Part shown: piece after piece, positions 461 through 25,654 of the stretch
How the letters are laid out: every line of letters starts with the position of its first letter
How positions within the stretch are numbered: the first letter of the stretch is position 1
Assembly: GCA_025936115.1 (NCBI GenBank)
Contig: JAICTZ010000024.1
Location: 1-64,000 of the forward strand
Origin: Polyangiaceae bacterium
GTDB lineage: Bacteria; Myxococcota_A; Polyangia; Polyangiales; Polyangiaceae
Length of the DNA: 64,000 nucleotides
Reading direction: 5' to 3'
Notes under the pieces: model-generated
What the model was told of the DNA's origin: nothing
Seen by the model: only the letters and a program-made list of their open reading frames with translations
Databases searched by the model: none
Position numbers and translations under genes: made by a program

Positions 461-1729
461 TCACGCGGAGGCGCGAATCCGGCCCGCGCGCGGAAGCTTG
501 AGCAGCGTGAGCGAGATCGCGAGAAGACCCGCGAACGTGACTCCACGAATCACCTTGACTTGATCGCCTAGAACCAGGACGCAAATCGCGACGAGCAGCG
601 CGGCCACGACGGCGAACGAGCCGCGCGGCAGCCGCGAGCGGAAACCTTCTGCCGCGCCATGCTGGCGGTTCTTGAAGGCCGCGAGCAGGAGCAGCGCGTA
701 CACACAACACTCGACGACCGCCGCGAGCACGGCAAGCTCGAGGGCCGCTCCTGTAATGGTCCCGACGTACGCCGCAATGCCGCTGACAAGGCAAAGCGAG
801 GCGAGCGCCACGACGGGAGTCCCGCGCCGCACCCAGACGCGCGAAAGGACGCTCGGCAAAGCCCCTTCGCGCGCGAGCACGTACAGCATGCGCGCGCCGC
901 CGAGCAGCCCTGCATTCAGGGTACTCGCAGCTGCGAACGAGCCGATGGTCAGCGCGAGCCAGCGTCCGAGCGAACCGAAGCGACCGACGCAGTAAGCGAG
1001 GAGCGCGCTCGCTGGCACTCCGGGACGCAAGAGCCAGTACGACCACGCGAACGCCAGGTAGACGACCGCCAGCACGCCGAGCGCGACGAACATCGCCAGA
1101 GGCATGTCACGCCGGTACTCCTCTTTGCGCCGGCCGGACGCCGTGACCCACTCGAAACCCATGAACAAGAAGATGACGATGATCGACGTGGACGCGACGG
1201 AACCGAGGCGCGTGCCGTGCTCGAGCACCGCGCGCGCGGCAACGGGCGACGCCGGCCCCGAGGAGACGCCGAGGCTCGCCACGACCAGCAACACCGTCAT
1301 GACGAATTGGGCGCGCAGCGACAGCGCATAGCCCAGGCAGTTGACGGCCAGCAGCGTCACGAAAACGAGAGCGACAGCGTGCCCTCCGGAAATACCGAGT
1401 CCTACGGCGTCGATGAGCCTCACGAGGCAGTAGGATTCGACCGAGGCGACGGCGGGGATCACGAGCAGGTAGAGGTAACTCGCGAACAACCCCACGCGCG
1501 GGCCCAGAGTCCCCGCGAGAATGGTTCTCACGCCGATCGCCCCAGGGAACCTGCTCGCGAGCTCCGCGATGGCGCCGGCGACGACCAGGACGACGCCGAA
1601 CGCGAGCACGAAAGCCGCGAGCCACTCGGCGAGCGATACACCCGTGAGAGAATCGGCGATGAGCGAGTAGCAACTACTCGACAGGGCCATGCCCACGGCG
1701 ACCGAGGTGAGCAGCATCCTTCGTTTCAT
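461..1729 (-). CDS. APC-superfamily amino acid/amine permease
   Basis: A 422-residue, strongly hydrophobic protein with about 12 predicted membrane segments and the layout of APC amino acid/polyamine transporters, including a glycine-rich first helix region. In the family such proteins move amino acids or amines across the inner membrane. The start at MKRRMLL is chosen because a GGGGAGAG ribosome-binding site precedes it and its ATG overlaps the TGA of the upstream SCP2 gene (ATGA). The open frame extends further upstream but that part only shadows the SCP2 gene. As last gene of the run it could import a precursor or export an amine product; the direction is inference. Confidence 0.8.
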   Translation of the reverse strand: MKRRMLLTSVAVGMALSSSCYSLIADSLTGVSLAEWLAAFVLAFGVVLVVAGAIAELASRFPGAIGVRTILAGTLGPRVGLFASYLYLLVIPAVASVESYCLVRLIDAVGLGISGGHAVALVFVTLLAVNCLGYALSLRAQFVMTVLLVVASLGVSSGPASPVAARAVLEHGTRLGSVASTSIIVIFLFMGFEWVTASGRRKEEYRRDMPLAMFVALGVLAVVYLAFAWSYWLLRPGVPASALLAYCVGRFGSLGRWLALTIGSFAAASTLNAGLLGGARMLYVLAREGALPSVLSRVWVRRGTPVVALASLCLVSGIAAYVGTITGAALELAVLAAVVECCVYALLLLAAFKNRQHGAAEGFRSRLPRGSFAVVAALLVAICVLVLGDQVKVIRGVTFAGLLAISLTLLKLPRAGRIRASA

Positions 1730-2082
1730 GGAATCTCTCCCCAAAGGACCACGCTGATGGCGTCGAGCTTCATCTTGTCCGCCTCGTCGCCGAGCACGGT
1801 GAGCGCGCCGTCCAAGTACTCCTTCGCGGGATTCCGCTCCCCCGCGAAGACTCCCCGAATCAGCTGCTCGTCCCCCGAGAGCAGGATGAGCTCGTCCTCG
1901 CCGTGATCGCCGGGTTCGACTCGGGTGATGGCGCCCGCGTCGACGCGCAACGTGAAGACCTCTCCCGTGTCGTCGGCTTTGACCACGATCATTCTGCGCC
2001 AATTGCGAATCAGGGATTTGACTCGGAGGTCCTCGTTCACGCGGCTGCGAAAACGCTCGAGTGTCTGCTGGAGATTCTGCAT
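1726..2082 (-). CDS. SCP2 sterol-carrier-like domain protein
   Basis: A 118-residue single-domain protein with the SCP2-like pattern: a central hydrophobic region around LRVDAGAITRVEPG and a C-terminal half with LSGDEQLIRGVFAG and ALTVLGDEADKMKL. SCP2 domains form a hydrophobic tunnel that binds lipids or fatty acyl chains. The start is fixed by GGAGGA six bases upstream of ATG 2082. Its stop overlaps the permease start. In this cluster a lipid-binding or chaperoning role for the pathway intermediate is a reasonable inference. Confidence 0.75.
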   Translation of the reverse strand: MQNLQQTLERFRSRVNEDLRVKSLIRNWRRMIVVKADDTGEVFTLRVDAGAITRVEPGDHGEDELILLSGDEQLIRGVFAGERNPAKEYLDGALTVLGDEADKMKLDAISVVLWGEIP

Positions 2083-2168
2083 GGGGTTCCTCCGGGCAAT
2101 GCAAAGCCAAGCCGCTCGGGCGATTGGCCCGCGGCGAGTCAAACCACGTTCGTCGAAGCTCTTACCGA

Positions 2169-3425
2169 CTATCCGATACCGGGAACTGGGAAGCGCAGGC
2201 TCAGAGCCCGCACTTCGGAACCGATGCGATTGAGCGTCGCCGAGTCGTCGGCCGCACGAAGGGCTTCCACGATCCACTGGGCGATTCGCTCCATCTCCGC
2301 GTCACGCATACCCCGGCAAGTGGCGGCCGGGGTGCCGACGCGAATGCCGGACGGTCGGAGCGGCGGATTCGGATCGTCCGGAATGATTTGTTTGTTGGTG
2401 GTGATACCCACCTGATCGAGGATTGCTTCGGCCCGGTTGCCCGCGAGGCCGAAGGACTTCACGGTATCGACCACGAGCAGGTGGTTGTCCGTTCCGCCCG
2501 TCACGAGCGTCACTCCTCTCGCGAGCAGCCCCTTCGCGAGTGTTTGCGCGTTCGAAAGGGTGCTTCTCGCGTACTCCTGAAACTCCGGCTCCGCCGCTTT
2601 TTTCAAAGTGATGGCGACACCGGCGATCGTGTTCATGTGGGGCCCGCCCTGCAAACCGGGAAACACCGACGCGTCGATGGCTTTGGCGTATTGGCTCCGG
2701 CACAGGATCAAGCCCGAGCGTGGCCCGCGCAGACTCTTGTGCGTCGTGGTCGTCACGATGTCGAATCCGAGGTCGAGCGGATTTTTCATCACGCCCGCTG
2801 CGATCAAGCCGCCGACGTGTGAAACGTCGGCCATCGTCACGGCACCGACGCGGTCGGCGACGCGCTTGAACGCTGCGTAGTCGTAGTCGCGAGGGTACGA
2901 AGTGTAGCCGCAGAGCACGACCTTGGGCCGCGTCTCGAGCGCGAGCTTGAGCACGTGGTCGAAATCGATGATCCCGCCACGGTCGAGGTCCGTCTTGTAG
3001 CGGGCGAAATTGAATATCTTGCCCATGTGCGAGACGGGCGCCCCGTGAGTGAGGTGCCCGCCGTGGCTGAGATCCATGGCGAGCACCGTCTCTCCCGGTT
3101 TGAGCAGCGCAAAATAGACGGCCTGGTTCATCGGCGACCCCGACAGCGCCTGCACGTTGGCGTGCTCGGCGCGAAAGAGGCGTTTCGCGCGGTCCACGGC
3201 GATGGTCTCGATCTTGTCCGTGTACGTCTGACCCCCGTAGTAACGACGTCCTGGATAACCCTCCGAGTATTTGTTCGTCAGTACCGAACCGAGCGCGACG
3301 AGTACTTCCGGGTACGTGTAGTTCTCCGACGGAATGAGCTCGATACCCGCCTGCTGGCGGCGCTCCTCGCCGACGATTGCTTGAAAAATCTCTGGGTCGT
3401 TGCGTTCTAGAATGTCACGGTCCAT
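2169..3425 (-). CDS. glyA: Serine hydroxymethyltransferase (cluster paralogue)
   Basis: A 418-residue fold-type I PLP enzyme with SHMT landmarks: IPSENYTYPEV near residue 31, YYGGQ near 62, and TTTTHKSLRGPRSG with the PLP lysine at K230. SHMTs interconvert serine and glycine or perform related aldol and alpha-methylation chemistry. Some segments depart from housekeeping enzymes (DVSHVGGLIAAG where DxAHxAGL is usual). That departure and the location suggest a pathway paralogue. The start at MDRDILE follows a weak CGAGG; an upstream ATG at 3452 would add nine residues. About 175 bp separate it from the MmgE gene, so a separate promoter is possible. Confidence 0.88.
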   Translation of the reverse strand: MDRDILERNDPEIFQAIVGEERRQQAGIELIPSENYTYPEVLVALGSVLTNKYSEGYPGRRYYGGQTYTDKIETIAVDRAKRLFRAEHANVQALSGSPMNQAVYFALLKPGETVLAMDLSHGGHLTHGAPVSHMGKIFNFARYKTDLDRGGIIDFDHVLKLALETRPKVVLCGYTSYPRDYDYAAFKRVADRVGAVTMADVSHVGGLIAAGVMKNPLDLGFDIVTTTTHKSLRGPRSGLILCRSQYAKAIDASVFPGLQGGPHMNTIAGVAITLKKAAEPEFQEYARSTLSNAQTLAKGLLARGVTLVTGGTDNHLLVVDTVKSFGLAGNRAEAILDQVGITTNKQIIPDDPNPPLRPSGIRVGTPAATCRGMRDAEMERIAQWIVEALRAADDSATLNRIGSEVRALSLRFPVPGIG

Positions 3426-3565
3426 CGAAACCTCGTGCCGGACGCCTCGCATCGCATGCTCACGCACTTGGCCACCTTGATTGGTCTCTGCCCGCCCGGC
3501 GCGACGGAGCGTACGCGAGGCGGAGGGCGGCAAACAAGCCCGCGACGCGGCGAGCTGCCGCTCTG

Positions 3566-3579
3566 GCCGTCCGGACGGC
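3566..3579. terminator. GC palindrome between MmgE/PrpD and SHMT genes
   Basis: GCCGTCCGGACGGC is a perfect 14-bp palindrome in the 176-bp gap (3426-3601) downstream of the MmgE/PrpD gene. No T-run follows. It might attenuate read-through into the SHMT gene or be an operator. Nothing else is clear in the gap. Confidence 0.25.
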
Positions 3580-3601
3580 GCCGCGACGCGCGCGGTGTTC
3601 G

Positions 3602-4948
3602 TCACGAGTCGCCCCAGCGAGCTTTGAAGCACCCGAGGAGGTCCGACGGCCGAGAGCTCGGCAGCGCCGAAACGGTCGTCCAAAGAGCGTCGTACGCGCT
3701 CGGCGGGACGCCTTCGTCACGGCCGGCCCGAATCACGAGCTCGGTCAGGCGCTTCCGATCGGGCGGCGGTTCGTCCGGCGTTCGCCGATACTTCCTTGCA
3801 CTAGGAGGCCCGTCGTCGCCGCTGACCTCGAGCGTTACGTCGTAGAGCCCGAGCTCCGGATCGGCAACGAGCGTGACGCGTCGAGCCAGGTCGAGCACGC
3901 GGGGATCGTCGCCGCCGAAGCTCGCCAGATCGAGCTTGCCCTGAATCAGCACGGCGGCGACGCAAAATGGGATGCTCGTCTGGGCCGCCGAACGAGTCGC
4001 AAACGGCCCCTGCGCGCTCACTCCAGGGTACGCGGCCGCGGGCGGTGAGAGAGCGATCTTGATCGCCGAGATGCGTTCGACGTTCCGCTCTTCACGCAGC
4101 CGGAGCGAGAGCAGCGCCGGGATCTGAGCCGCTCCGCACGCGGGGAACGGCTTGAACGCGACGCGACGCATGGCCCACTCGCGTCCGAGTCCGGAAAAGG
4201 CCGCTATGTCGCAGTCCATGCGCGCGTAGACGCGCGCGAATCCCGCCGGCCCTTCGAAAGCGGAACATGATGCCCGCGAGCCTCGCCGCGCCAGCTCCGC
4301 CGCCATGAGTCCCTGCTCGGCGGCGAACCCTAGCTGGTAACGCCATTCGTCCGATCCATCGACGAGCGACTGCATCGGCCCGCCGCTGTACGAGACCGCG
4401 GCGGCGATCGCGTTCGCGAGCTCGTCCACCGGGAGACGCATGAGTCTACCCGCCGCCGCGGCAGCCGCGATCGGCCCGTAAAGGGACGAGCCGCGGTGGC
4501 CGCCCGCGGCGGTTTGCACGCCGCAGACGGCCTGAACCGCCGCGCCGACCTCGTAACCTGCGACCAGCGCCGGCATGAAGCCTGCGGGGTCGTACCGGCC
4601 CGACTCGAGCAAGGCGGTCAACACCGGGATCACGACGGCACCGAAATGCGACGCACCGCAGGTGTCCTCTTGCGATCGGGCATGGAAGAGAGCGCTGTTG
4701 CCGAACGCGGCGCCCGCCACCGAAGTCCGTTCACCGCTCGCGAGCAGCGTGGCTCCGCCCGACGAAACCACGCCGTGGAGCTCGATACTCGCTTGCGCTG
4801 CGAGCCGTGCGTAGGGAACGCGGCACGAGCCGAGAGCGATGCCGTAACCCCAAAAGAGACACTGCTGCGCCTTCTCGAGAACGACCGCGGGAATCACCGC
4901 AGGTTCCAGCTCAGCCACGAACCGCGCCAGACGCATCGCAACGGACAT
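3602..4948 (-). CDS. MmgE/PrpD-family protein
   Basis: A 448-residue protein of the MmgE/PrpD superfamily, which includes 2-methylcitrate dehydratase and cis-aconitate decarboxylase. Family-like segments include GASHFGAVVIP near residue 98, an alanine-rich helical core, RVAFKPFPACGAAQ near 258 and a C-terminal SGDDGPPSARKYRRTPDEPP. Substrate cannot be read from sequence; dehydration or decarboxylation of an organic acid is the family expectation. The gene overlaps the reductase gene before it by 38 bp, implying coupled translation. Confidence 0.75.
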   Translation of the reverse strand: MSVAMRLARFVAELEPAVIPAVVLEKAQQCLFWGYGIALGSCRVPYARLAAQASIELHGVVSSGGATLLASGERTSVAGAAFGNSALFHARSQEDTCGASHFGAVVIPVLTALLESGRYDPAGFMPALVAGYEVGAAVQAVCGVQTAAGGHRGSSLYGPIAAAAAAGRLMRLPVDELANAIAAAVSYSGGPMQSLVDGSDEWRYQLGFAAEQGLMAAELARRGSRASCSAFEGPAGFARVYARMDCDIAAFSGLGREWAMRRVAFKPFPACGAAQIPALLSLRLREERNVERISAIKIALSPPAAAYPGVSAQGPFATRSAAQTSIPFCVAAVLIQGKLDLASFGGDDPRVLDLARRVTLVADPELGLYDVTLEVSGDDGPPSARKYRRTPDEPPPDRKRLTELVIRAGRDEGVPPSAYDALWTTVSALPSSRPSDLLGCFKARWGDS

Positions 4949-5993
4949 CGTTCATGTTCCTTTCGGGCTCCGCGCGCCGAGCGGCCGCGAAGCGTTCCGT
5001 CCAAACGTTCTCTGCCTGCACGCCGAGGGCACGCACGTGACCCTCGACGCCGCGCACGAATTCACCGCCGCCGCACACGTAGAATTCCGCGGTGTGTGCC
5101 ACTTCGGCGACCTCCTCGAGCCAATCACTCACGCGCCCGAAGACGGCGCGCTCGTCGTGCACGGCCTCGCGCGAGACGACGAACTTGAGCTCGAAGCGGG
5201 TCTTCCAGCGCGCTTTCAACGCGAGCAGCGCCGGCTCGTACGCGATCTCCGACCGGTAACGGGCGCCGTAAAAGAGATGGACACGCGGGTGAACCGGCGC
5301 GTCAACGAGCGTCTCGAGCATGGCCTTGATCGGTCCAATGCCGCTTCCGCCCGCGAGGAACACGCTCGCTTTGCGGGTGCCCCGGTAATGAAAGCGGCCG
5401 CGAGGCGCCGTCACTTCGACGCTGGCACCGAGATGCGCTCGGTCGGTGAGCCACGACGAGACGAGCCCGCCGCTCACGCGCCGCACGCAGAGCTCGTAGT
5501 GTTCCGCGTCGGCCTGGGGCGCGCACGCCAGCGAGTACTCGCGTGCGGCGCCCATGCCTCGCGGCCGCACGACGATGAATTGACCGGGAACGTAGTCGGC
5601 GCGGCGGGCCGGCCGGAGCAGGACTCGATGGATGTCGCGCCCCAGCTCGTCACTCTGGACGAGCTCGGCGGGTTGCCATTCGTCGCACGTCGGGCCGAGC
5701 TCGATCTCGAGCTTGGCATCGAGCGGCACGGATTGGCACGCGAGAACGTAGCCGTCCGCGAGCGCCCGTTCCGAAAGCACGTAAGCGAACTCGGTACGGG
5801 CCTTGATCCGCCCGGAAACCAGCTTGAGAGCACACGTGCCGCAACTTCCGACGCGACAGCTGAACGGTATGTCGACCTTGGCGCGCAGCGCCCCGTCGAG
5901 CAGTGTCTGCTTCGAAGCGACCGGGAAGCTCGTACCGAGCGACGGGACGTGCACCTCGCTGTTGCTCGGCTTCGGGGCGCGGCGAAAAAACAC
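4911..5993 (-). CDS. 2Fe-2S/FAD/NAD(P) oxidoreductase (electron donor)
   Basis: A three-domain reductase of about 360 residues. The N-terminal plant-type ferredoxin domain carries C46, C51, C54 and C86 (CRVGSCGTC...ACQS). It is followed by an FAD domain with REYSLAC and an NAD-binding domain with GGSGIGPIKAM. Such proteins pass electrons from NAD(P)H to oxygenases. It lies directly after the AlkB-like oxygenase gene and overlaps its stop region, so it is the likely partner. Start choice: GTG 5993 has GGAAGG nine bases upstream. A TTG at 6002 would overlap the AlkB stop but leave no ribosome-binding spacing. Confidence 0.85.
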   Translation of the reverse strand: MFFRRAPKPSNSEVHVPSLGTSFPVASKQTLLDGALRAKVDIPFSCRVGSCGTCALKLVSGRIKARTEFAYVLSERALADGYVLACQSVPLDAKLEIELGPTCDEWQPAELVQSDELGRDIHRVLLRPARRADYVPGQFIVVRPRGMGAAREYSLACAPQADAEHYELCVRRVSGGLVSSWLTDRAHLGASVEVTAPRGRFHYRGTRKASVFLAGGSGIGPIKAMLETLVDAPVHPRVHLFYGARYRSEIAYEPALLALKARWKTRFELKFVVSREAVHDERAVFGRVSDWLEEVAEVAHTAEFYVCGGGEFVRGVEGHVRALGVQAENVWTERFAAARRAEPERNMNDVRCDASGAVRG

Positions 5994-5998
5994 GATAT

Positions 5999-7105
5999 TC
6001 AACCTTCCGAGAGCAGACCGAGCTCCCCGCTCGACGCAAGTTCGCGATCCCACTTCGCGATCATGGGCCGCATCATGCGTTGCCAGAGCGGAGGCAAAAG
6101 CACGACGAGCGCAGCCGTCTTGTAGCCAATCGGCAGCGTCAGCGTCTCGAGTTTGGGCTCGAGACGAAAGAACGGCTTGTCGCCGTAGAGATGATGATCG
6201 GCGTGACGTGGCATGTTGAAAGTGAGCATGTTCGTCGAACCGGCGTACTGGTCCCACGCGTGCCGCGACTGAACCGTCGTGCCGGGAACGCGCACGAGGC
6301 CGTAGTGTTGTACGTAATTCGAGACCTCGAGATAATAGCGCCCGATCACCAAGACGAGCCCGTAAGCCACGACGCCGCGCGCACCGCCGAGCGAGGCACT
6401 CACCGCCACGAAGCACGCGAGCATGACGTAGCCTTGGAGCAGCCGGTTCGCCGGACCGTACAGCGACGAGCGCCGCGTGCGCAGGCGGCGAGCTTCGATG
6501 TGCCACGCGCTCCGAAACTGCCCCCACACCGATCGGAAGAAGAACGCATAGATGGACTCACCCCGCCGCGCCGTGGTCGGATCTTCGCCCGTCCCTACGT
6601 TCAGATGATGACCGTGTACGTGCTCGACGCCGAACGCGGGGCTGCCAGCGAAAGCGAGCAGCACGCGCGCGACGCCGGTCGCGAACCCGCTGCCCGTGCG
6701 ATGAATCAGCTCGTGTCCGACGACGAACCCGATCGCGCCGAACAGGATCCCGAGCGAAGTCACGCTGCCCCCGAGCTCGAGCGCGCTCGACGCCGCTTTG
6801 GCCGCCACCCACGCCGCGGGCAGGTGACGCTCGTAGGCGTGCACGGGCCCCACGAGCCAAAGTAGACTGAGCCAGACGCAGAAGAGCGCGAGGGTGCTCG
6901 CAGCGAGCGCGAGGTCGAGCAGCAGGGGCCAGCGATAGCTCGGAGTCGCGAGATTTTGGCGTCCGAGCCACTCCCGCCCGACACCGACCGACAGCATGAA
7001 CGCGGTCGGAAACCAGAGCCAGCCGCGTCCGGCGAGATTGCACGCGAGCGTCATTCCCATGATGAAGATTGGGAAGAAGAACTTCAGACCCCGTGCTTGA
7101 CTCAT
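5999..7105 (-). CDS. AlkB-like membrane di-iron oxygenase/desaturase
   Basis: A 368-residue membrane protein with three histidine boxes in alkane-hydroxylase style: HELIHR at 131-136, EHVHGHH at 161-167 and RHADHH near the C-terminus, plus the AlkB-like QHYGL. Members hydroxylate or desaturate alkyl chains at a di-iron centre in the inner membrane. Its ATG overlaps the stop of the preceding desaturase gene (ATGA). The reductase gene downstream supplies a plausible electron donor. Terminal or mid-chain oxidation of the lipid intermediate is inferred. Confidence 0.82.
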   Translation of the reverse strand: MSQARGLKFFFPIFIMGMTLACNLAGRGWLWFPTAFMLSVGVGREWLGRQNLATPSYRWPLLLDLALAASTLALFCVWLSLLWLVGPVHAYERHLPAAWVAAKAASSALELGGSVTSLGILFGAIGFVVGHELIHRTGSGFATGVARVLLAFAGSPAFGVEHVHGHHLNVGTGEDPTTARRGESIYAFFFRSVWGQFRSAWHIEARRLRTRRSSLYGPANRLLQGYVMLACFVAVSASLGGARGVVAYGLVLVIGRYYLEVSNYVQHYGLVRVPGTTVQSRHAWDQYAGSTNMLTFNMPRHADHHLYGDKPFFRLEPKLETLTLPIGYKTAALVVLLPPLWQRMMRPMIAKWDRELASSGELGLLSEG

Positions 7106-8124
7106 GGCGCTCGCTCCGCGGTGCCGAATACAGCCGGCATTAGACCTACCGGCATCGAATCCGTCGCTGCGCGAGCCGGCGCACTCGGGTAGCTGTAGCG
7201 CGTCCCGGCGTGTTTGTACGCGTCCCAAAGCGTTCGATCGATGCGAACGCCGGGACGATCGTAGTGACCGCTCCCTACGAGCAGGGCATGCACCGCAGGC
7301 AAGCGGTAGCAGGCGACGGACGGATAGAGGTGATGCTCCAGGTGGTAGTTGTTCCCGAAATAGAGAGCGGTCAAAAGCGGCGAGGTGCGCGTCCGGGCGT
7401 TCACGAAGTCGCCCACGCGTGTGTCCGCGTGCTCCAGGTACGAGCGAATGCCCGTGTAAAACGACGCGGCGACGTGGGGTAGAACGATGGCGACGAATCC
7501 CAACCTCGGATCGCGCCACAGGACGAGGGCATAGACGACGAGCCACGCCGACGCGCAGCCGACGTTCAGCCACGCCAGTCGCCGCACCACGTGCGGTGGA
7601 AACGGCAGCGACGACGCGTAGAGCAGCGGCTCGCCGCGCAAAATACGCAGCGTGTTTCGGCGGTAGATGCCGTTCGCATACGTGCGGGCGCACAAGACGC
7701 GCATGAACGCGCTCTTGAAGCGGGTGAAAATCGGGATATCCGGGTCTTGCTCCAGATTGGTGTAGAGGTGGTGATTCCAATGCGAGATCGAAGCGCCGAT
7801 CTGCAAGAACGAACCGATCATCGACGAGAAGAAGATACCGAGCACGCAACTTACGACGTTGTTTTTGTGCAGACTGAAATGAAAACCGTCGTGACCGACC
7901 CAGGCCAAGAGATGTAGGCCTTGCTGAGCGAGGAACAGCGCCGCGAGCACGAGCGGCGCCTTCGACCACCACGACCACGGCGAGCAGACGATACCGAACG
8001 CTCCGAGCCCTCCCCCCACGTACATCAGGATCGCGTAGAGCACGAACACCGACGACCAGAGCGGTGAGCTCGAGTACCATTCGAGCGGCAGGTCAGGCTT
8101 TTTGGCCATCGACGTGCTGTCCAT
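7102..8124 (-). CDS. Fatty acid desaturase
   Basis: A 340-residue integral membrane desaturase with HDGFH, HWNHH and YHLEHH boxes and four or more membrane spans, matching the front-end/acyl-lipid desaturase superfamily. It would insert a double bond in an acyl chain using a di-iron site. GGAGGA sits six bases before ATG 8124. The 3' end overlaps the AlkB-like gene by 4 bp and the 5' end overlaps the Mpo1-like gene by 32 bp, so the three are translated together. Confidence 0.88.
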   Translation of the reverse strand: MDSTSMAKKPDLPLEWYSSSPLWSSVFVLYAILMYVGGGLGAFGIVCSPWSWWSKAPLVLAALFLAQQGLHLLAWVGHDGFHFSLHKNNVVSCVLGIFFSSMIGSFLQIGASISHWNHHLYTNLEQDPDIPIFTRFKSAFMRVLCARTYANGIYRRNTLRILRGEPLLYASSLPFPPHVVRRLAWLNVGCASAWLVVYALVLWRDPRLGFVAIVLPHVAASFYTGIRSYLEHADTRVGDFVNARTRTSPLLTALYFGNNYHLEHHLYPSVACYRLPAVHALLVGSGHYDRPGVRIDRTLWDAYKHAGTRYSYPSAPARAATDSMPVGLMPAVFGTAERAP

Positions 8125-17990: not shown

Positions 17991-20102
17991 CTATCGCATT
18001 GAGGTGACCGGTACGATCGACGATTGTTCCGCAAGCTCGTCGGCGCGGCGCAGCGCGAGCGCCCGTGCCAAGCCTCGAATCGTGGGCTGCTCGTAAAGCA
18101 GGTCCGTCGGGATGGCGCGACTGGCGGCGCGCTCGAGCTCGCCTACGAGAGTGAGCGCCGTGAGTGAATCGAGGCCGAGCTGAGCGAAGGAGTGCTCCGG
18201 GCTCACCTCTTCGGGGCTGCGACCCAGCTTCTCGACGAGCTGATCGATGATGAACGTCTCGATGCTGCCCGCGTCTCCGAGGTCGAGCGTCGGGGCAGCC
18301 GTGCCGTCCTCGCCCGGGAGCCAGTCACGCGCCTCGTCTCGACGCCCGCCGAACGAACCCTGGGGGCGCTTCCACATGCCCCGCTGAGTCAACGTGCGCT
18401 CGAGATACGCGTTCTTCGTTTCGCGCCGCATCAGCTTGCCGCTCGACGTGACGGGGACGCTGCCTCGCGCCACGAGCACGATGGCGGCGGGAACGATCCC
18501 GTGAACCTCGAGCACTCTCTCGGCGAGCTTCGGTAGAAGCTCCCCCATGCTCGAACCGGACGGAACGGCGAGCTCCTGCACGATCACGAGCTCCTCGCCG
18601 TCCTTGCGCTCGAGCGAGAAGGCCACACCGCGTCCTTGCCGCAGCAGCGGACTCACCGACTGCACGGTCGCTTCGATGTCCTGCGGGTAATGGTTGAGCC
18701 CCCGAATGATGATGAGCTCCTTCAACCGCCCGGTGACGAACAGCTCACCGTCGTGGAAAAAGCCCAGGTCCCCCGTGCGCAGGTAGCGCCCCGGCGCGTG
18801 GGCGCGCTCGGCGCCGAACGTGGCCAACGTCTCTTCCGGCTTCTGCCAATAGCCGGCCGCCACGCTCGGTCCCGCGATCCAGACTTCGCCGACCTCCCCT
18901 TCGCCGAGCCCTTCCCGCGTCATCGGATCGACGATCGCCACGCTCTGGCCTCCGACGGGACGGCCAGCGCTCACGAGCGTGAGTGCCTTGGGCGCACGAG
19001 CGTCGAGCGGCCGAGCCCGACCGCGCTCGAGCTCGGCGAGCTCGAAGCTATATTCTCTTGCGCCCCGGCCCTTCGTGCCGCCCGTGACGAATAGGGTCGA
19101 CTCCGCGAGCCCGTAGCACGGATAAAATGCTTCCGGGCGAAATCCACTCGGCTCGAACGCCCGAGCGAAGGCGCGCAGCACGTCCGCCCGCACGGGCTCC
19201 GAGCCGCAGAACGCGAGTTGCCAGCTACTCAGATCGAGCGCCGCTCGCTCCTCCGGCGTCGTCTTGCGAACGCAGAGATCATAAGCGAACGTCGGGCCTC
19301 CGCTGGTGACCGCGCCGTACCTGTGGATCGCCTGCAACCAGGCAATGGGCCTGCGCAGAAAGGCCGAAGGTGTCATGAGCACGGTGCGCGAACCGACGTA
19401 CACCGCATGCAGGACGCCTCCGAGTAGCCCCATATCGTGATAAGGAGGCAGCCAAATCACTCCGTAAGGCTTGCCGAAATCGTGCCGGAACTCGCACCGG
19501 ATGGTCTCCAGATTGTGCATCAAGTTGCCGTGCGTAATGATCACGCCCTTCGGCGAACCCGTAGAACCCGACGTGTACTGGATCACGGCTGGTGTCTCGG
19601 GATCGATTTCGGTCGCCCGCGCAAGGTCGCCGGACTGACACTCTTCTAGAGCGAGCACGCGCACGTGAGAGTCCTCGACGAGGCACGCGCGAATCGACGG
19701 GACGAGGTCCGCGTGCGTCACGACGAGCCTTGCGCCAGCATCGCGCAGAATGGCGCGAAACCTCGCCTGCTGTGCGCCGGGGCGTGGAGGAAACGCCGGA
19801 ACCGCGAGCGCTCCCGCGTAGAAGCAGCCCATGAGCGCCGTGACGAACGGCCTACCCGGCGACAGCGCGAGAATTACGGGTGCCCCCTCCGTTCGCAAGG
19901 CTGCTAGGCCTTCAGCGACGCCGCGCGCACCGCGATCGAGTTCGGCGTACGTCACGCAATCTTCCGATTTACCGTCGCTGGCTATGACCGTGTAAACAGG
20001 CTCACTTCCGGTGGTCGCGGCCCTCCACTCGAGCACCTCGACGAGGCTCGCGGGACGATCGTTGATGGCGGCGACGCTGACGGCCGAAGACTGCCTGGGC
20101 AT
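17991..20102 (-). CDS. Fatty acyl-AMP ligase fused to ACP
   Basis: A 703-residue loading module. Residues 1 to about 590 are a FadD32-like fatty acyl-AMP ligase with YTSGSTGSPKGV, WLPPYHDMGLLGG, PCYGLAESTLFVTGG, TGDLGFFHDGELFVTGR and terminal TSSGKLMRRET. Residues about 615-703 are an ACP with FAQLGLDSLTALTL. FAALs take free fatty acids as acyl-adenylates onto an ACP without CoA. AAGGAAGA lies before ATG 20102. This is the probable entry enzyme of the pathway, capturing a ready-made fatty acid in the absence of any ketosynthase in the cluster. Confidence 0.92.
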   Translation of the reverse strand: MPRQSSAVSVAAINDRPASLVEVLEWRAATTGSEPVYTVIASDGKSEDCVTYAELDRGARGVAEGLAALRTEGAPVILALSPGRPFVTALMGCFYAGALAVPAFPPRPGAQQARFRAILRDAGARLVVTHADLVPSIRACLVEDSHVRVLALEECQSGDLARATEIDPETPAVIQYTSGSTGSPKGVIITHGNLMHNLETIRCEFRHDFGKPYGVIWLPPYHDMGLLGGVLHAVYVGSRTVLMTPSAFLRRPIAWLQAIHRYGAVTSGGPTFAYDLCVRKTTPEERAALDLSSWQLAFCGSEPVRADVLRAFARAFEPSGFRPEAFYPCYGLAESTLFVTGGTKGRGAREYSFELAELERGRARPLDARAPKALTLVSAGRPVGGQSVAIVDPMTREGLGEGEVGEVWIAGPSVAAGYWQKPEETLATFGAERAHAPGRYLRTGDLGFFHDGELFVTGRLKELIIIRGLNHYPQDIEATVQSVSPLLRQGRGVAFSLERKDGEELVIVQELAVPSGSSMGELLPKLAERVLEVHGIVPAAIVLVARGSVPVTSSGKLMRRETKNAYLERTLTQRGMWKRPQGSFGGRRDEARDWLPGEDGTAAPTLDLGDAGSIETFIIDQLVEKLGRSPEEVSPEHSFAQLGLDSLTALTLVGELERAASRAIPTDLLYEQPTIRGLARALALRRADELAEQSSIVPVTSMR

Positions 20103-20176
20103 GAATCTTCCTTTGAGCCTCGCGACTCTCGACAAGCGGCGCAAGGCAACCCATCTCGCCCGCGACCACGACTACC

Positions 20177-20205
20177 TTTCTGCACATTAACTCACGGCGC
20201 GTCAA
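20177..20205 (-). promoter_or_regulatory. Possible promoter of the FAAL-to-permease run
   Basis: On the minus strand TTGACG (20200-20205) is followed after 17 bp by CAGAAA (20177-20182). The -10 match is poor. It lies in the largest gap inside the cluster (20103-20258), about 75 bp before the FAAL start, where a second transcript could begin. Confidence 0.3.
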
Positions 20206-20218
20206 GCACACTCCACAT

Positions 20219-20238
20219 GATCTCGGTGAGTCGAGATC
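20219..20238. promoter_or_regulatory. Inverted repeat GATCTCG/CGAGATC in the cluster's main gap
   Basis: Perfect 7-bp arms with a 6-nt loop. On the plus strand it is followed by GCTTTTATTT, so it resembles a terminator for antisense transcripts. It could equally be an operator for the promoter just below. The surrounding 40 bp are the most AT-rich of the cluster. Confidence 0.35.
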
Positions 20239-20258
20239 GCTTTTATTTGTTCATTCAC

Positions 20259-22055
20259 TTATTCGTTGCCGCGAGCGGACTCGGTCGTTGTCACCGAATC
20301 GAAGCTCCCGGCGAGACGCAGCGGAGCGAGCGAAAACAAGCGCCCCTCACGTCGCAAAGCGAGCAAGGCCTCCGCCATCGCTGCCGCGAAAGGCCTCGCT
20401 TCGAATGCATGCTCCGGGCAGAGCGGCTCGAGCGCGCGATGTAGCGTGTAGGCGAGCCATTCCCCTCCCATGAACACCGGGTGCAACTGCGCACGGCTCG
20501 TGAACCACGAGCCGAAACACGCCGCGGCGGCGTGCAGGCGCGCGTAGCGGCGTGCGAGCTCGAAGCACTCTGCGGACGCAGGGGCTGCGGCGCCGAGCCG
20601 CGCGTGGGTCGATTCGACCGCCGTCTCGCAGACGTCGCGCTCTCGAATCAAGCGGCGCAACAGCGACTCGATGCACGCGTGCACGTCCGTGCTCACGTGA
20701 GGCAGGCCGCCGGCCGCAAAGCGTTCGAACGCGAGCTCGAGCCCCTGGAGCGCAGCGTCCTTGCCGAAGTTCAAGAGCTGCAAGCGACGAGCATCGAAGT
20801 TGGGGAGCGGTGCGCCGAGCCGGTACCTCGACGCCGCACGCTCCGAGAGCTCCTCGGCCGCGGGCCGAGTCATGCGCAGTCTCGTCTGACGTAACGCCCT
20901 GAGCTGCACGGCCAGCGTGCTCAAATTCACGGCGGTACTGCCGTCGAAGAGCGAGACCACGGCGCTGTCGCGCAGAATCTTCTGGAAAATGCCGGATTCG
21001 TATTCCTCGCGCAGGTAGTAGCGTGCACCCATCACGACGCCGAGCTCCCGAACGAGCCGCTCGCACAGCGTGGGCACGAGGTACTTCACCACGGCGGAAA
21101 CGACGCTGAGCTCCTCGGGCGCCAAGTGCATGACTCGATGGGCGACGATCGCCGTAGCGTCCGCGAGCAGCAGGTCGGCGAAGGCGTCGACGACCGCGGC
21201 GCGCGCGCTGTCGATGTCCCACACGGTCGCGCCGAAGAGCTCGCGCGACCTCACGAAGTCGAGCGTCAAGCGCAGCGCCGTATCGGCCGCCCCGAGCGAA
21301 AAACCCGCGCAAAACAGCCGCGTCACCTGCAGACCGCGGATGGCGACGTCGAGCCCACCGCCGCGCGCGCCCACGAGCGCCGCGTCCGGGACGAAGGCAC
21401 GCTCGAAGCGAATACCGCTGATGTCGGCGCCGCGGATTCCGAGCGTATGGATCTTCGGCAGATGGGCGTAGCTGCCCGCCGCGAGCGCCGCTTTGTTCAC
21501 GAGCAAGAGCGAGCACGAGCGAGCGCCTTCGACGGCCTCGGTCCGAGCAAGGACGGTGAGCGCTGCGCTCCGCGTGCCGTTGTTGGTGAGCCATTTTTCC
21601 CCGTCGAGAAGGTAACCGCCGGCGACGGGTTCGGCGCGGACCGCGGTGCGCGTCACGTCGCCGCCGTGAGCCTTCTCCGTGAGTCCGAATGACACGGGTT
21701 CGCCGCGTCGCACGAGATCGGCGAGCTCGCGTTGCTGCGCCGGCGTGCCCGCAATCCAGACGTGAATGGCGCCGAGATAGGTTTTGCCGAGCGCAATCGC
21801 GACCGACAAGTCTCTGCGCGACACGCAGCGCAGGATCGACAGCGCTTCCTCGCCGTTCGCGAGCGCGCCACCGAGCGAGCTGGGCACGAAGTAGTCCGGT
21901 AAACCCCATGTCTTCAGCACGTCGCAGGCTGCTTGAGGAAAGCGCTCGAGTTCGTCGTCCTGCACGAGGACGGGGTAAGAAAAAACGCCGTCGTCGTGAG
22001 GCGCGAGGTACCGTTCGAGCGCCTCCGCCCGTTCATACGTCGCCGTCTTCAACAT
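20259..22055 (-). CDS. Acyl-CoA/acyl-ACP dehydrogenase
   Basis: A 598-residue flavoenzyme of the acyl-CoA dehydrogenase superfamily: SFGLTEKAHGGDVTRT (flavin/substrate loop), GEKWLTNNGTRS, LGIRGADISGIRF and a catalytic-helix region YESGIFQKILRDS. It exceeds the usual 380-residue core by an approximately 200-residue helical C-terminal extension, as in longer FadE-like proteins. In FAAL clusters such enzymes often desaturate ACP-bound chains; that assignment is inferred. It starts 28 bp downstream of the fusion enzyme gene. Confidence 0.85.
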   Translation of the reverse strand: MLKTATYERAEALERYLAPHDDGVFSYPVLVQDDELERFPQAACDVLKTWGLPDYFVPSSLGGALANGEEALSILRCVSRRDLSVAIALGKTYLGAIHVWIAGTPAQQRELADLVRRGEPVSFGLTEKAHGGDVTRTAVRAEPVAGGYLLDGEKWLTNNGTRSAALTVLARTEAVEGARSCSLLLVNKAALAAGSYAHLPKIHTLGIRGADISGIRFERAFVPDAALVGARGGGLDVAIRGLQVTRLFCAGFSLGAADTALRLTLDFVRSRELFGATVWDIDSARAAVVDAFADLLLADATAIVAHRVMHLAPEELSVVSAVVKYLVPTLCERLVRELGVVMGARYYLREEYESGIFQKILRDSAVVSLFDGSTAVNLSTLAVQLRALRQTRLRMTRPAAEELSERAASRYRLGAPLPNFDARRLQLLNFGKDAALQGLELAFERFAAGGLPHVSTDVHACIESLLRRLIRERDVCETAVESTHARLGAAAPASAECFELARRYARLHAAAACFGSWFTSRAQLHPVFMGGEWLAYTLHRALEPLCPEHAFEARPFAAAMAEALLALRREGRLFSLAPLRLAGSFDSVTTTESARGNE

Positions 22056-22083: not shown

Positions 22084-24912
22084 CTAGAACATGCGGTCGA
22101 GTTTGTACGAGCCCAGGCCAAACCCGTGAAGCTTCGCGAGCGCCGTGATCTCGCGCACCTGATCCGTCGTGATCGGCCCGCGGCTGAAGTCGGCGGCGAC
22201 ACCGCCGAGCCCGAGAACGAGCGTCTCGGCGGCACAGGCGAACGTCTCTCCCGCCGGCAGCGGAAAGCCGGGCAGCTCGAAGTCACGATCGCCGGGAACC
22301 GCGACGAGCCCGCCAAAGATCACCTTGGCGTTCGGTCGTTGTGCCGCGACCTCACGCGATACGTCCGCAGGAACCGCCACGTCGCAGAGCAGCACCGGAC
22401 GATGCTGCGCGACGTGGCGCGGCTCGATCACCGGCTCTGCACTGTTGGAGGCGCTGATGATCACGTCCGCAGCGAGGAGTGCACGTGCGTCTTCTTCGGT
22501 CGCAACCAACGGGTTACCGAGCGCCGACTCGATCAGCGGTAGGAGCCGCGGGAATGCGGGCGGCGGTCGATCGATGCGCTCGTACGCGGCGGTAAAGCGG
22601 CCGAACAGGCCCGTCGTCCCCCGCAGCCCGCGCCCGTAGAGCATTGCCAACTCGGCGGCGACCTCGGCGGCCACGGCTTCGAGTCGTAGTTTCGAGCCGG
22701 GCCGCCCCACCAGAAGCAACGACTCGCAGTCGGGAGCTACCAATCGAGCGTGCACGCTGCCGATGTTACCGGTCGCACCGAAGATGGCCACCGTACTCCG
22801 CTCGAGCTCGATGCCGAGCTCGCGAGCGGTCCGCCGCACGGCTTCGTGGCTCGCGGCGACCGTGAGCGCGTTGCCCGTCGTGACGGCGGGCTCGTCTTCC
22901 GCGAACTCGACGCAATTGGCGGTCGCGATCGAAGTGTAGCCACCGAACCCTACCAGTGAGCAACCGAGCTCTCGCGCGCGCTCGTAGGCTGCGAACACTT
23001 GCGCGCGGATCTTGCGACCGCTGTTCTCGTGCAGGTCGCGCTCGATGTCCTTGGCAGTCATGAAGATAACGATCAGCGCGAGCTCCGCCGCCGCGCCGCA
23101 GTCGGAGCGTACGGCATAGCGTCCGACGACGTTCGGGCCGAGCGTTCCGGAGAGGCGGCGCATCAACCGTTCGAGCTCCCCAGCGCTGAAGCCGGCGAGC
23201 GTGGGATCCCAGCGGGGGAGCGTTTGGGCGTCGATCGCATGTGCGACGAAGGCGACGCGCGATCGCATCGTCTCGAGGGGCTCGCGCCGCCGGCGCGTGA
23301 GCGGTCGAGGCGGTTCGTCGACCAGCGGACGCCCCGGACAAGTGAGATAGCGCAAGAGGTAGTGGGCATCGCCGCCGGCCAGAGCCGCGCAGACGCCATC
23401 GAGCGCGTGGCGCACGCGAGCGATGGCGTCTGGCCGGATATAGGCGGAGGGTTGAAAACGTAGAACGCTGCGACGCCCGACCGTCGGCAAAACGCGAATG
23501 TCGCGTTCGTGCAGCAGGTGTCCGGAAATGATCATCGTGAGGATGTTCTCCTCGGCGAGCACGCGAAGCGTGTGCGACGGGTTCTCGTCCTGGCTCTTGA
23601 ACTCGATCCCGAGCATGAGGCCGCGGCCCCGAACGTCCGCGATTTGCTCCGGCCAACGCTCCCGCACGAAATTGAGCTCCCGCTTCAACGCGCCGCCCGA
23701 CTCCTGCGCCTTTTGCTGGAGGTTCTCTTCGTCGATGACCTCCAGGGCACGGAGCGCCACCGCCGAGCTGAGGTCGTCGTCGGCGAACGTCGAGGTATGA
23801 AGCAGTGAGTATTCGGACCGGTAGCGGCGCGCATCGACGGCGAGCGCGGAGACTTTGACGAGCCCGCCCCCGAGCGATTTGCCGAGCGTGATGTAGTCGG
23901 CTGGCAGCTCGCGGCGCGCACCTTCGAGCAAGCAACCCGTGCGACCGAGGCCGGTTTGGACTTCGTCGATCAGCAGCGGAATCTCGGGATGGGATTCCCG
24001 AAAGCACACGAGCTCGTCCGCGATCGCCCCCTCGAGCTCCTGGACTCCGCCTTCGCCGCGAATCGGTTCGGCGATGACCGCACAGATACGACCGAATCGG
24101 CGGCTCGAAATCGTAGGAGTCGGGTCGAGCACGAGCTCGTAGAGATCCGCCGTCAGCTCGTCGTGAATCTCGGCCATGCGATCCCCGTCGCGCACGAAGC
24201 GCACGAGCGACGGCCCGCGCACGAACGGTTGCCGCGCATCCGGGTTCCACGTTACGGCCAGGGAGCCCATCGTCTTGCCGTGAAAGCCGCCTTCGACCGC
24301 CAATAGGTGGCCGGGATGGGCGAGCGCCTCGAGGTTCGCAACGGTAAGGGCGGCCTCGAGGGCGGCAAGATCTTCGATCGGCGCGATCCGGAGCGTCCGT
24401 TCGGCACTTCGGAAGAAGTCGTCCGTGAGTTCGTAATTGCTGCGCTGTAGACGACGCCGAAGCTCGCGCAGACGCGACTCGATTTCCGCGCGCGCATCCA
24501 GCTGCCGCTGAACGAACTCGAGCCGAGCGTGCTTGAGGGCCGCTTCGACGGCTTCGGTACCGGTGCTGTACAGGAGCACCTCGTAGGCAGTTCCCGTTTG
24601 GGCCTCGAGCAGCGTCGCGAGCGTGCGGCGCAGTTCGTCCGACGGGGGCCGCCTGGACGCCTGCACGAGAGTCGGGCGCTGCTCGGCAAGATGACGCTCC
24701 ACGACGTCTCTGATTTTCGGGTGATTGTGACCGAGCAGCGTCGAGCCGAAACCGCCCACGAAGTCCGTCGCGATGCGCGCCGCACCACTCTCGTCCACCC
24801 AGTGCAAGTCGTCGCCGACTGCGCGCGCGAAGCTGACGCTCAGCCCCAAGAGCTCGAGCAAAGCTTCACGCCCGAGGTAGGCCCACCCAACCTTGTCTAC
24901 TTGCTTTCCCAC
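22084..24912 (-). CDS. Class III aminotransferase fused to acyl-ACP-reductase-like domain
   Basis: A 942-residue bifunctional protein. The N-terminal ~480 residues are a class III PLP aminotransferase: FVGGFGSTLLGHNHP, GFHGKTMGSLA, LLIDEVQTGLGRTG and ITLGKSLGGG with the PLP lysine. There is a helical insertion around residues 135-205. The C-terminal ~380 residues parallel cyanobacterial acyl-ACP reductase: GFGGYTSI, TTGNALTV, GATGNIGS, IFGGLVAVPG, ETFACAAETLVLGL and KLHGFGLGSYKL. That enzyme reduces acyl-ACP to fatty aldehyde, so the fusion should make a fatty amine. GTG 24912 is chosen because GGGAG lies six bases upstream. Confidence 0.85.
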   Translation of the reverse strand: MGKQVDKVGWAYLGREALLELLGLSVSFARAVGDDLHWVDESGAARIATDFVGGFGSTLLGHNHPKIRDVVERHLAEQRPTLVQASRRPPSDELRRTLATLLEAQTGTAYEVLLYSTGTEAVEAALKHARLEFVQRQLDARAEIESRLRELRRRLQRSNYELTDDFFRSAERTLRIAPIEDLAALEAALTVANLEALAHPGHLLAVEGGFHGKTMGSLAVTWNPDARQPFVRGPSLVRFVRDGDRMAEIHDELTADLYELVLDPTPTISSRRFGRICAVIAEPIRGEGGVQELEGAIADELVCFRESHPEIPLLIDEVQTGLGRTGCLLEGARRELPADYITLGKSLGGGLVKVSALAVDARRYRSEYSLLHTSTFADDDLSSAVALRALEVIDEENLQQKAQESGGALKRELNFVRERWPEQIADVRGRGLMLGIEFKSQDENPSHTLRVLAEENILTMIISGHLLHERDIRVLPTVGRRSVLRFQPSAYIRPDAIARVRHALDGVCAALAGGDAHYLLRYLTCPGRPLVDEPPRPLTRRRREPLETMRSRVAFVAHAIDAQTLPRWDPTLAGFSAGELERLMRRLSGTLGPNVVGRYAVRSDCGAAAELALIVIFMTAKDIERDLHENSGRKIRAQVFAAYERARELGCSLVGFGGYTSIATANCVEFAEDEPAVTTGNALTVAASHEAVRRTARELGIELERSTVAIFGATGNIGSVHARLVAPDCESLLLVGRPGSKLRLEAVAAEVAAELAMLYGRGLRGTTGLFGRFTAAYERIDRPPPAFPRLLPLIESALGNPLVATEEDARALLAADVIISASNSAEPVIEPRHVAQHRPVLLCDVAVPADVSREVAAQRPNAKVIFGGLVAVPGDRDFELPGFPLPAGETFACAAETLVLGLGGVAADFSRGPITTDQVREITALAKLHGFGLGSYKLDRMF

Positions 24913-24955
24913 CGTCCACTCCCGAAAAATGTTTCGCGTTTCGCGTTCGAGCGAG

Positions 24956-25654
24956 CTAGGCAACGCGCTCCTTGCCGCGCGGCACGGCCGGTGCCGGTAC
25001 GGCGCTAGGAGCAGTGGTGACGGGGCGCGAAGCCATGCGCGGCGCATCGAGCCGACCGCTGAGCTCGGTGAGGTGCCCGAGCGTGGCCCTGAGCTCGTCG
25101 ATCATACGCATATCGACTCCGAGCTCTTCACATTGGGACAGAACGCCACGAAAGTCGTCGCTGACGCGCTTGATGTTCTTCAGCAGGCGCCGCTTCGGAT
25201 CGAGCGGCGGACGTCCGCGCTTGCCGCCCGACCGATGGCGCGCCTCTCGAACCAAGCCGCGCAACGCGCGCGCGGTCAGCCCGCGCTGCTCTGCCTCGAA
25301 GAGGAACGCTTCTTGAGCGTCGTCCGGAAGCGGCAATACCGCTTCCAAGTGCGCCAACGACAAGCGCGAGCTTCTGACAATCCACGAAATACGGCCGGAC
25401 AACTCATGAACACCGACTGCCCTGCTGATTGCGGACGCACTGACCGGCAAATCGGGGCGCCGCGCGAGCTTTCTATAAGAAACGGGCAGCACGCGTGCGC
25501 ATTTGAGTGCTCGCGGATCCCCGCTGAAACATCCGTCCACGACGATCTTACCGATACGGAGCGCGCGCTCGATACCGTGTAAGCGGCAGAGAGACTGCAG
25601 CTGACTCACGATCTCGTCGACAACCGATGCTTGACTTCGGATTTCCGAGACCAT
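24956..25654 (-). CDS. ParB/KorB-like DNA-binding protein, possible cluster regulator
   Basis: A 232-residue protein. Residues about 95-140 (SRLSLAHLEAVLPLPDDAQEAF then EQRGLTARALRGLVREARH) resemble the helix-turn-helix block of ParB/KorB proteins, followed by a basic GGKRGRPPLDPKRR stretch. The N-terminal half and the proline/alanine tail are not recognised. GGGAGGTTGCG precedes ATG 25654 ideally. It is the first gene of the run, 43 bp before the fusion enzyme gene, so a regulatory role is plausible. Plasmid or phage origin is an alternative. Confidence 0.55.
   Translation of the reverse strand: MVSEIRSQASVVDEIVSQLQSLCRLHGIERALRIGKIVVDGCFSGDPRALKCARVLPVSYRKLARRPDLPVSASAISRAVGVHELSGRISWIVRSSRLSLAHLEAVLPLPDDAQEAFLFEAEQRGLTARALRGLVREARHRSGGKRGRPPLDPKRRLLKNIKRVSDDFRGVLSQCEELGVDMRMIDELRATLGHLTELSGRLDAPRMASRPVTTAPSAVPAPAVPRGKERVA

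Follow-up and report, generated by a model that had tools for sequence, protein, structure and literature searches.

A ketosynthase-free gene cluster with a tambjamine-type amine cassette in a bacterium of the Polyangiaceae

INTRODUCTION

The fatty amine of the antibiotic tambjamine YP1 from Pseudoalteromonas is proposed to be made by three enzymes, TamA, TamT and TamH. TamA puts a C12 acid onto its own acyl carrier protein (ACP), and the introduction of a 3,4 double bond is the predicted task of TamT, as described in PMC5939613, while the P. tunicata enzymes PtTamA and PtTamH convert fatty acids to amines in one pot in vitro, as described in PMC9594044. The conversion of a fatty acid to an amine without a ketosynthase (KS) is already known from tambjamine. 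Fusions of a transaminase with an acyl reductase are known as well, also from koreenceine, where KecF is predicted to release the amine and ketosynthases are proposed to build the chain, in the account of PMC6498172. The nocuolin A (noc) cluster is described with genes for a fatty acyl-AMP ligase (FAAL) carrying an ACP, an aminotransferase and an acyl-ACP reductase (PMC5333925; PMC11837247). Here we analyse a window of 64,000 nucleotides from a Polyangiaceae bacterium (GCA_025936115.1, contig JAICTZ010000024.1, positions 1 to 64,000), which holds a cluster with relatives of TamA, TamT and TamH and no KS.

The cluster spans positions 461 to 25654, the limits given in a preliminary description of this DNA, and gene calling and spacing resolve it into a compact 25-kb run that reads in one direction, as that description had it, with 23 rather than 22 genes. 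All of these lie on the minus strand, and so do the coordinates given below unless a strand is stated. We consider it fairly likely that the run is a two-branch biosynthetic operon free of ketosynthases, in which a tambjamine-type amine cassette is combined with a carrier-bound partner. Its product is probably a fatty-amine natural product of a new type, the newness lying in the combination of genes. The absence of condensing domains, already noted in the preliminary description, held up: Pfam scans found neither a KS nor a condensation domain among the 23 proteins at E ≤ 0.001, and a scan of the whole genome gave seven KS matches (E ≤ 1e-10) and one condensation match (E ≤ 0.001), all on other contigs and none on the contig of the cluster (C74). 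The window shares a transaminase-acyl reductase fusion with koreenceine but has no KS genes beside it, and it shares three gene types with noc, which, as described in PMC5333925 and PMC11837247, differs in having a ketosynthase and a nonribosomal peptide synthetase (NRPS) gene and in an aminotransferase and a reductase that are listed separately.

THE AMINE CASSETTE AND ITS RELATIVES

Gene families were assigned by Pfam, NCBIfam and PDB sequence searches. Three adjacent genes encode a class III aminotransferase fused to an acyl-ACP reductase (22084–24912, 942 aa; Aminotran_3), an acyl dehydrogenase of the long form (20259–22055, 598 aa; Acyl-CoA_dh domains) and a FAAL fused to an ACP (17991–20102, 703 aa; AMP-binding, a DIP2-like C domain and PP-binding, with LGLDSL from residue 642). 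These are relatives of TamH, TamT and TamA, respectively. The same three enzyme types occur in the amine branch of tambjamine YP1 with the same domain orders (FAAL then ACP; a long acyl-CoA dehydrogenase, ACAD; transaminase then acyl-ACP reductase), and the fusion has 942 residues here and 941 in PtTamH. Unlike in tambjamine, the three cassette genes are adjacent in the window, and the bipyrrole and PigC-type genes that were sought are absent from the cluster; in their place it has numerous extra oxygenases and another ligase with its ACP.

The best PDB matches of the fusion, CrmG and PigE, cover its transaminase half. For the acyl reductase half the family match is not a strong one (Pfam Shikimate_DH, 29 bits), and the assignment was made through alignment to full-length relatives and through motifs; within this limit, the searches support the gene classes that the preliminary description had named. 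The pyridoxal phosphate lysine (Lys345), the GxxGxxG motif (GATGNIG from 712) and the cysteine (Cys893) are all present, and by motif they match K340, GxxGxxG and C887 as described for PtTamH (PMC9594044). Among the matches listed, the fusion is closest by identity to proteins of Chitinimonas viridis (44%) and two Pseudoalteromonas (41%). A profile scan, in which four aligned fusions were run against named genomes, yielded at least 80 TamH-like loci. For a tree, fusions were drawn from 51 of 85 relative loci, and 44 of 52 sequences, the window protein included, were retained once 8 fragments shorter than 780 aa had been omitted. The window protein forms a clade with the Chitinimonas and the two Pseudoalteromonas proteins (support 100/100).

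The loci of these relatives are called tambjamine-type from their gene content. Those of Chitinimonas and the first Pseudoalteromonas contain PigA/RedW-like dehydrogenases (409–411 and 342–372 bits, NCBIfam), with a PigJ-like KS (347 bits) in the Chitinimonas locus and a RedH/PigC-like ligase (1003 bits) in the Pseudoalteromonas locus, each scanned in that locus; the NCBIfam matches that mark these loci all lie under the curated equivalog cut-offs. In the second Pseudoalteromonas locus, both the KS and the PigC queries found matches. Homologous clusters with an embedded KS that is merely lost here had been named beforehand as a finding that would speak against a pathway of this kind, and this applies in part. 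A KS does occur in tambjamine-type loci (the PigJ-like protein of Chitinimonas, below its family cut-off; loci L016 and L058), but PigJ is, by its family name, an enzyme of the bipyrrole half, and in two further loci (L017 and L020), where a FAAL gene neighbours the TamH-like one, two KS queries matched nothing within the sequence fetched.

The dehydrogenase is the clearest orthologue of the cassette, with the ACAD of the tambjamine (tam) clusters taken as TamT, an FAD enzyme in PMC5939613. Its best match in each of the three tambjamine-type genomes is an ACAD of 37–41% identity (E 2e-88 to 2e-101), and the second-best matches stand at 22, 22 and 26%, with E no better than 5e-21. This ACAD lies about 1 kb from a PigC/RedH-like gene in Chitinimonas and one Pseudoalteromonas, and in the other Pseudoalteromonas it shares a contig, the tam contig, with the FAAL match. 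In a tree of the first 400 residues, made by a quick method, the window protein is sister to the Chitinimonas-Pseudoalteromonas group with a Shimodaira-Hasegawa-like approximate likelihood ratio (SH-aLRT) of 99, and the long ACADs of tam clusters group apart from the PigA/RedW-like proteins that these clusters also encode. A role as dehydrogenase of a prolyl peptidyl carrier protein (PCP) was considered, with RedW among the NCBIfam matches, and was rejected on the grouping with the long tam-cluster ACADs; the window protein scores 66 bits to RedW and 40 to PigA, where the Chitinimonas protein reaches 411 and 409.

The FAAL-ACP is likewise sister to the FAALs of tam clusters (92/92), a weaker link because other FAALs are almost as similar. 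In all three trees, then, the window protein is sister to one Chitinimonas and two Pseudoalteromonas sequences (100/100, 99 and 92/92; identity 36–45%), which is the order that joint inheritance of the cassette predicts. Family membership, motifs, gene order and a shared ancestry of the cassette can all be read from sequence comparison. The preliminary description had proposed that a finished fatty acid is captured and turned into an amine without a KS. The fusion clade and the in vitro conversion by PtTamA and PtTamH (as described in PMC9594044) speak for this, but the logic is not new, since TamA, TamT and TamH had been published. What the window suggests is that the enzymes behind the tail of tambjamine make up a cassette that can be transferred and that also serves apart from bipyrrole pigments, in a different phylum (probably Myxococcota). 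TamH, TamT and TamA together would be a search key for natural products of the fatty-amine type, and the FAAL/TamH pairs newly seen are candidates for enzymatic conversion of fatty acids to amines.

A SECOND LIGASE AND CARRIER PROTEIN

Most of the cluster lies outside the cassette, including the second ligase-ACP set, so 'modified fatty amine', the product class proposed in the preliminary description, agrees with the cassette but may cover no more than a portion of the molecule made. The gene of the second AMP-forming ligase (14221–15666; AMP-binding) overlaps both that of a free-standing ACP (13931–14227; PP-binding E 9e-7, LGIDS from 50) and that of an alpha/beta hydrolase (15663–16529; Abhydrolase), a candidate acyl transferase or thioesterase. 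In an alignment the ligase has Asn where a gramicidin synthase domain has an Asp that presumably binds the alpha-amino group, and this points away from an alpha-amino acid as substrate. Its identity to tam-cluster ligases is 23–27%; with the Asn at the specificity position, a role as proline ligase is not supported.

The hydrolase is 39–43% identical to the products of genes in three actinobacterial loci (L025, L096 and L097), which lie beside or near ACP genes, and its putative Ser, Asp and His are kept in 4/4 sequences; esterases are among its best PDB relatives. A Saccharomonospora locus has the hydrolase close to both an ACP (52% over 48 residues) and a TamH-like fusion (35%), a Streptomyces plasmid has a hydrolase relative with an ACP gene, and on a mycobacterial plasmid an ACP, a thioester-reductase-like short-chain dehydrogenase/reductase (SDR, 30%) and the hydrolase are consecutive. 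The hydrolase thus recurs with an ACP in three loci, with the SDR in one and with the fusion in one. The mycobacterial plasmid (L096, Mycobacterium intracellulare subsp. chimaera) resembles the window in its ACP-SDR-hydrolase block (hydrolase 43%), an ACAD and an adenylation protein, and differs from it in having no TamH match in the fetched 31 kb and in a PhyH-type protein annotated as a chlorinating enzyme. Positions 13586–20938 of this locus, from a non-tuberculous mycobacterium, hold the ACP, SDR, hydrolase, ACAD, adenylation protein, a PCP and the gene annotated as a chlorinating enzyme, and are perhaps a small natural-product cluster.

Downstream of the ACP gene, a divergent DapB-like reductase (13162–13950; DapB_N and DapB_C) is a second copy, 28% identical to that on contig C78, and has retained, by alignment, the His and Lys that we take to be the catalytic pair of DapB. 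It is followed by a class II aldolase family protein (12378–13148; Aldolase_II E 2.3e-32) and by two nitroreductase family proteins. The preliminary description had called the latter 'two nitroreductase halves', which is not supported, because they are separate proteins of 262 residues (11605–12393; PF00881) and 210 residues (10976–11608; PF00881 E 1.3e-8), and the match of the longer, SagB-like oxidoreductase to TIGR03605 (45.9 bits) is under the cut-off of 78.4. The thioester-reductase-like SDR (9872–10969; NAD_binding_4 E 1.1e-23) has the motifs GATGFVG and YHRSK. Next to it lies an isonitrile hydratase (InhA)-like protein of the DJ-1 family (9177–9872; PDB 6ni5, E 5.8e-52), which, besides the sequence match, has the cysteine of the GVCTG motif (Cys113) that we take to have a role in InhA. 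This second branch is an unusual enzyme set and amenable to assay. Several genes of the cluster had gone unnamed in the preliminary description, namely the DapB-like, class II aldolase, SDR, alpha/beta hydrolase and isonitrile-hydratase-like genes and, from the genes treated below, those for a second serine hydroxymethyltransferase (SHMT), an MmgE/PrpD family protein and an SCP2-like protein.

LIPID TAILORING, TRANSPORT AND REMAINING GENES

The preliminary description had counted three histidine-box oxygenases or desaturases, and lipid oxygenases are indeed present, with one refinement. The protein at 5999–7105 was considered as a desaturase; a relative of AlkB-type alkane monooxygenases fits better (PDB 8f6t, E 9.2e-40), and it has four conserved His/Asn motifs (HELIH, HGHH, NYVQH and HADHH), which we take to be those that define AlkB. 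Its gene adjoins that of a ferredoxin-flavin reductase (4911–6002; Fer2, FAD_binding_6 and NAD_binding_1; TTG start uncertain), a likely electron donor, and these features make terminal or near-terminal hydroxylation likely. There are also a membrane fatty acid desaturase family protein (7102–8124; FA_desaturase E 4.9e-27; HWNHH and HLEHH) and an enzyme of the fatty acid hydroxylase/sterol desaturase superfamily (8437–9180; FA_hydroxylase E 1.3e-16), whose gene adjoins that of an Mpo1-like 2-hydroxy fatty acid dioxygenase family protein (8093–8440; Mpo1-like E 2.4e-31). Going by the name of the Mpo1 family, 2-hydroxylation followed by alpha-oxidation would remove one carbon from the chain.

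Transport is represented by a MATE exporter (16567–17967; MatE E 1e-40) and an APC family permease (461–1717; AA_permease_2 E 1.4e-20). Beside the permease gene lies that of the SCP2-like protein (1726–2082; Pfam SCP2 E 0.043, below cut-off), a tentative assignment that also takes in the helix/strand order of a structure model with a predicted local distance difference test (pLDDT) score of 84. The pair recurs, at 36% identity each, after a TamH-like fusion in a metagenome-assembled genome of a beta-proteobacterium (L055), and by this analogy may serve in amine or lipid handling. That locus is like the window in its TamH-like fusion followed by the SCP2-like protein, the APC permease and, further on, a desaturase gene, and unlike it in having diiron-type and MMPL genes, while neither the FAAL nor the second ligase matched anything in the 15.5 kb fetched; with these genes at 3089–13119, it is perhaps another fatty-amine cluster. 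The remaining genes of the window cluster encode the MmgE/PrpD family protein (3602–4948; PF03972 E 5.9e-39), the SHMT (2169–3425; SHMT E 1.3e-143), which shares 50% identity with the other copy of the genome, on contig C25, and, as the first gene of the run, a possible helix-turn-helix (HTH) regulator of 232 aa (24956–25654; Pfam HTH_ParB E 0.0066, below cut-off; poor structure model, pLDDT 48).

WHAT THE CLUSTER MAY MAKE

In the pathway that we propose, the FAAL-ACP would adenylate a free fatty acid and load it onto its own carrier domain, the TamT-like dehydrogenase would desaturate the carrier-bound chain, and the TamH-like fusion would reduce the thioester to an aldehyde and then transaminate it to a primary (alkenyl) amine. 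What TamA and TamH catalyse is known from the literature for the P. tunicata enzymes, and by analogy would be the same here. Tailoring of the chain would probably fall to the AlkB-type monooxygenase and its reductase, to the hydroxylase/Mpo1-like pair and to the desaturase. The second branch (ligase, ACP, DapB-like reductase, aldolase, nitroreductases, SDR and hydrolase) would probably build a small carrier-bound partner, which the SDR would release as an aldehyde (or acyl unit) to be joined to the amine in place of the bipyrrole aldehyde of tambjamine; the hydrolase may instead pass an acyl unit to the amine. The MATE and APC proteins would transport product or substrate. Everything on the second branch, and the joining step, we infer. 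A bolder version, which we consider less likely than not, is that a modular tambjamine strategy has moved its cassette between phyla, where it would serve a new class of convergent, KS-free fatty-amine alkaloid, with an oxygenated alkenyl amine joined to a second, carrier-bound acid for which a dedicated ligase, ACP and thioester reductase carry out the conversion to an aldehyde.

Several observations weigh against a two-branch operon built on a tambjamine-type cassette. A search with five cluster proteins against 377 genomes of the phylum (its own included), made to look for the syntenic clusters that the preliminary description had suggested seeking, found no copy of the whole cluster, so that where the cluster ends, and whether its two branches belong together, has to be judged from a single genome. 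No PigC/RedH-type enzyme was matched in the window at E ≤ 1e-10 with one PigC query, which leaves the joining step without an obvious catalyst. In the fusion tree, 20 of the 44 rows failed the composition check. One genome has a different FAAL that scores nearly as high, and one FAAL from a Chloroflexota is slightly more identical (43%). The labels TamA, TamT and TamH in the compared loci come from architecture, gene position and the papers' descriptions rather than from P. tunicata sequences, and we know of no product for the Chitinimonas and Pseudoalteromonas strains. The chemistry of TamT is given as a prediction in PMC5939613, and the role of the Chitinimonas homologue is called unclear in PMC9594044.

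The hydrolase opens another route, in which the second ligase loads an acid onto the free ACP and the hydrolase transfers it to the fatty amine to give an N-acyl alkylamine. The contiguity of hydrolase, ligase and ACP, the recurrence of the hydrolase family (39–43%) in three loci of actinobacteria, beside or near ACP genes and in one case with a TamH-like fusion as well, and the conserved putative catalytic residues agree with it; yet it leaves the SDR, DapB-like reductase, aldolase and nitroreductases without explanation, and the esterases among the best PDB relatives of the hydrolase count against it, which makes this amide route unlikely in our view. We give very little weight to an ordinary tambjamine or prodiginine whose bipyrrole genes lie elsewhere in the genome. 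TamA-, TamT- and TamH-like genes with a ligase-ACP pair (the ligase at 23–27% to tam ligases) and seven KS matches on other contigs would suit it, but no PigA/RedW-, PigJ- or PigC-like protein was found among the 23 (PigC and PigA being searched in the window), the two KS queries match nothing in the window, and the dehydrogenase scores 66 bits to RedW where the Chitinimonas protein scores 411. To our knowledge, most of the extra genes have no role in tambjamine.

A catabolic operon for the breakdown of alkanes, alkylamines or branched lipids would account for the AlkB relative, MmgE/PrpD, SHMT, APC permease and SCP2-like protein. We consider it improbable, given that two ligase-ACP pairs, a TamH-type reductive exit to an amine and a MATE exporter are biosynthetic features, and that SHMT and DapB have other copies elsewhere in the genome. 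The strong InhA match with the Cys of its GVCTG motif, for its part, could mean an isonitrile in the product, or one that the pathway detoxifies, with the InhA-like protein hydrating it to a formamide; this too we regard as improbable, since the DJ-1 family is functionally diverse, no isonitrile source is evident, and Pfam scans of the 23 genes gave no match to an isonitrile synthase family.

DISTRIBUTION AND GENOME MINING

Among the 377 genomes of the phylum, the DapB-like reductase (E ≤ 1e-20), the hydrolase (E ≤ 1e-35) and the SagB-like protein (E ≤ 1e-15) matched in the cluster's own genome only. The second ligase (E ≤ 1e-40) matched in its own and one other (G327, 33%), and that stretch was judged unrelated, its next gene being KS-like by eye and no other cluster protein matching there. 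The TamH-like fusion (E ≤ 1e-60) matched in six genomes, its own among them; of the remaining five, just one (G073) has, in the sequence fetched around its fusion, further matches to the FAAL (34%) and, weakly, the ACAD. This genome, of the same phylum as the window, groups with a Kofleriaceae sequence in two trees, an indirect sign that the phylum is probably Myxococcota, given that genes of this sort may cross between phyla. A search of plasmids gave 23 records for the DapB-like protein, the best 10 at 26–31% identity and six of those annotated dapB, two good relatives of the hydrolase, and a best full-length match of 30% for the TamH-like fusion. Among the matches listed in searches of the open-access literature, there was no fatty-amine cluster of this make-up from myxobacteria.

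TamH-like and PigC-like genes share a locus with no match to the two KS queries in 12 of 80 loci scanned from the profile search and in two of the five other genomes of the phylum (L009, L010, L018, L019, L026, L028, L029, L031, L032, L033, L038, L041, L045 and L090, the last called PigC-like from an 89-residue match alone). These counts come from two KS queries and one PigC query run on the fetched loci only, so distant family members and genes further off fall outside them. The loci may represent amine-condensing pathways without a bipyrrole. In two phylum genomes (L013, 10206–13616; L014, 12941–17446) the transaminase-reductase appears, by eye, in frame with an AMP-ligase-like N-terminal part, and in another (G258; L012, 1703–4540) the fusion gene is interrupted in its reductase part, perhaps through assembly error or decay.

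The preliminary description expected mining tools keyed on KS or condensation domains to miss the cluster, which is doubtful. In a survey of fungal genomes, NRPS-like clusters were defined by AMP-binding plus PP-binding or NAD_binding_4, and FAALs were picked up by this rule, as described in PMC8070225. By Pfam, all three of these domains occur in the cluster; standard mining would thus be likely to flag it, though without naming it well.

GENE LAYOUT AND NEIGHBOURHOOD

Twelve of the 22 gene junctions in the run overlap and the widest intergenic gap is 176 nt, figures that depend on the start codons picked in gene calling. From this spacing alone, the 23 genes are predicted to be co-transcribed; consensus scans found no sigma-70-like promoter in 25500–27500 and no terminator in 1–600, at the 3' end of the cluster. 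The window starts at base 1 of its contig (103,360 bases), so gene loss at the contig edge has to be kept in mind. On the plus strand, a short frame with a coding score of 11.5 runs to 181 and stops 279 bases from the final cluster gene, and its convergent orientation suggests, short of proof, that the 3' end of the cluster is complete. Composition does not mark the cluster off, with a G+C of 64–69% against 60–73% in the remainder of the window (2-kb steps).

A putative mobile island adjoins the cluster, with a tyrosine integrase (35612–36718, minus strand) and a large serine recombinase (54164–55837, plus strand), whose 3' end overlaps a tRNA-Met gene (55816–55892, minus strand). Within the putative island lie a ThiF-like gene (42342–43817) and one for an SNF2 helicase-methyltransferase (44174–47443).

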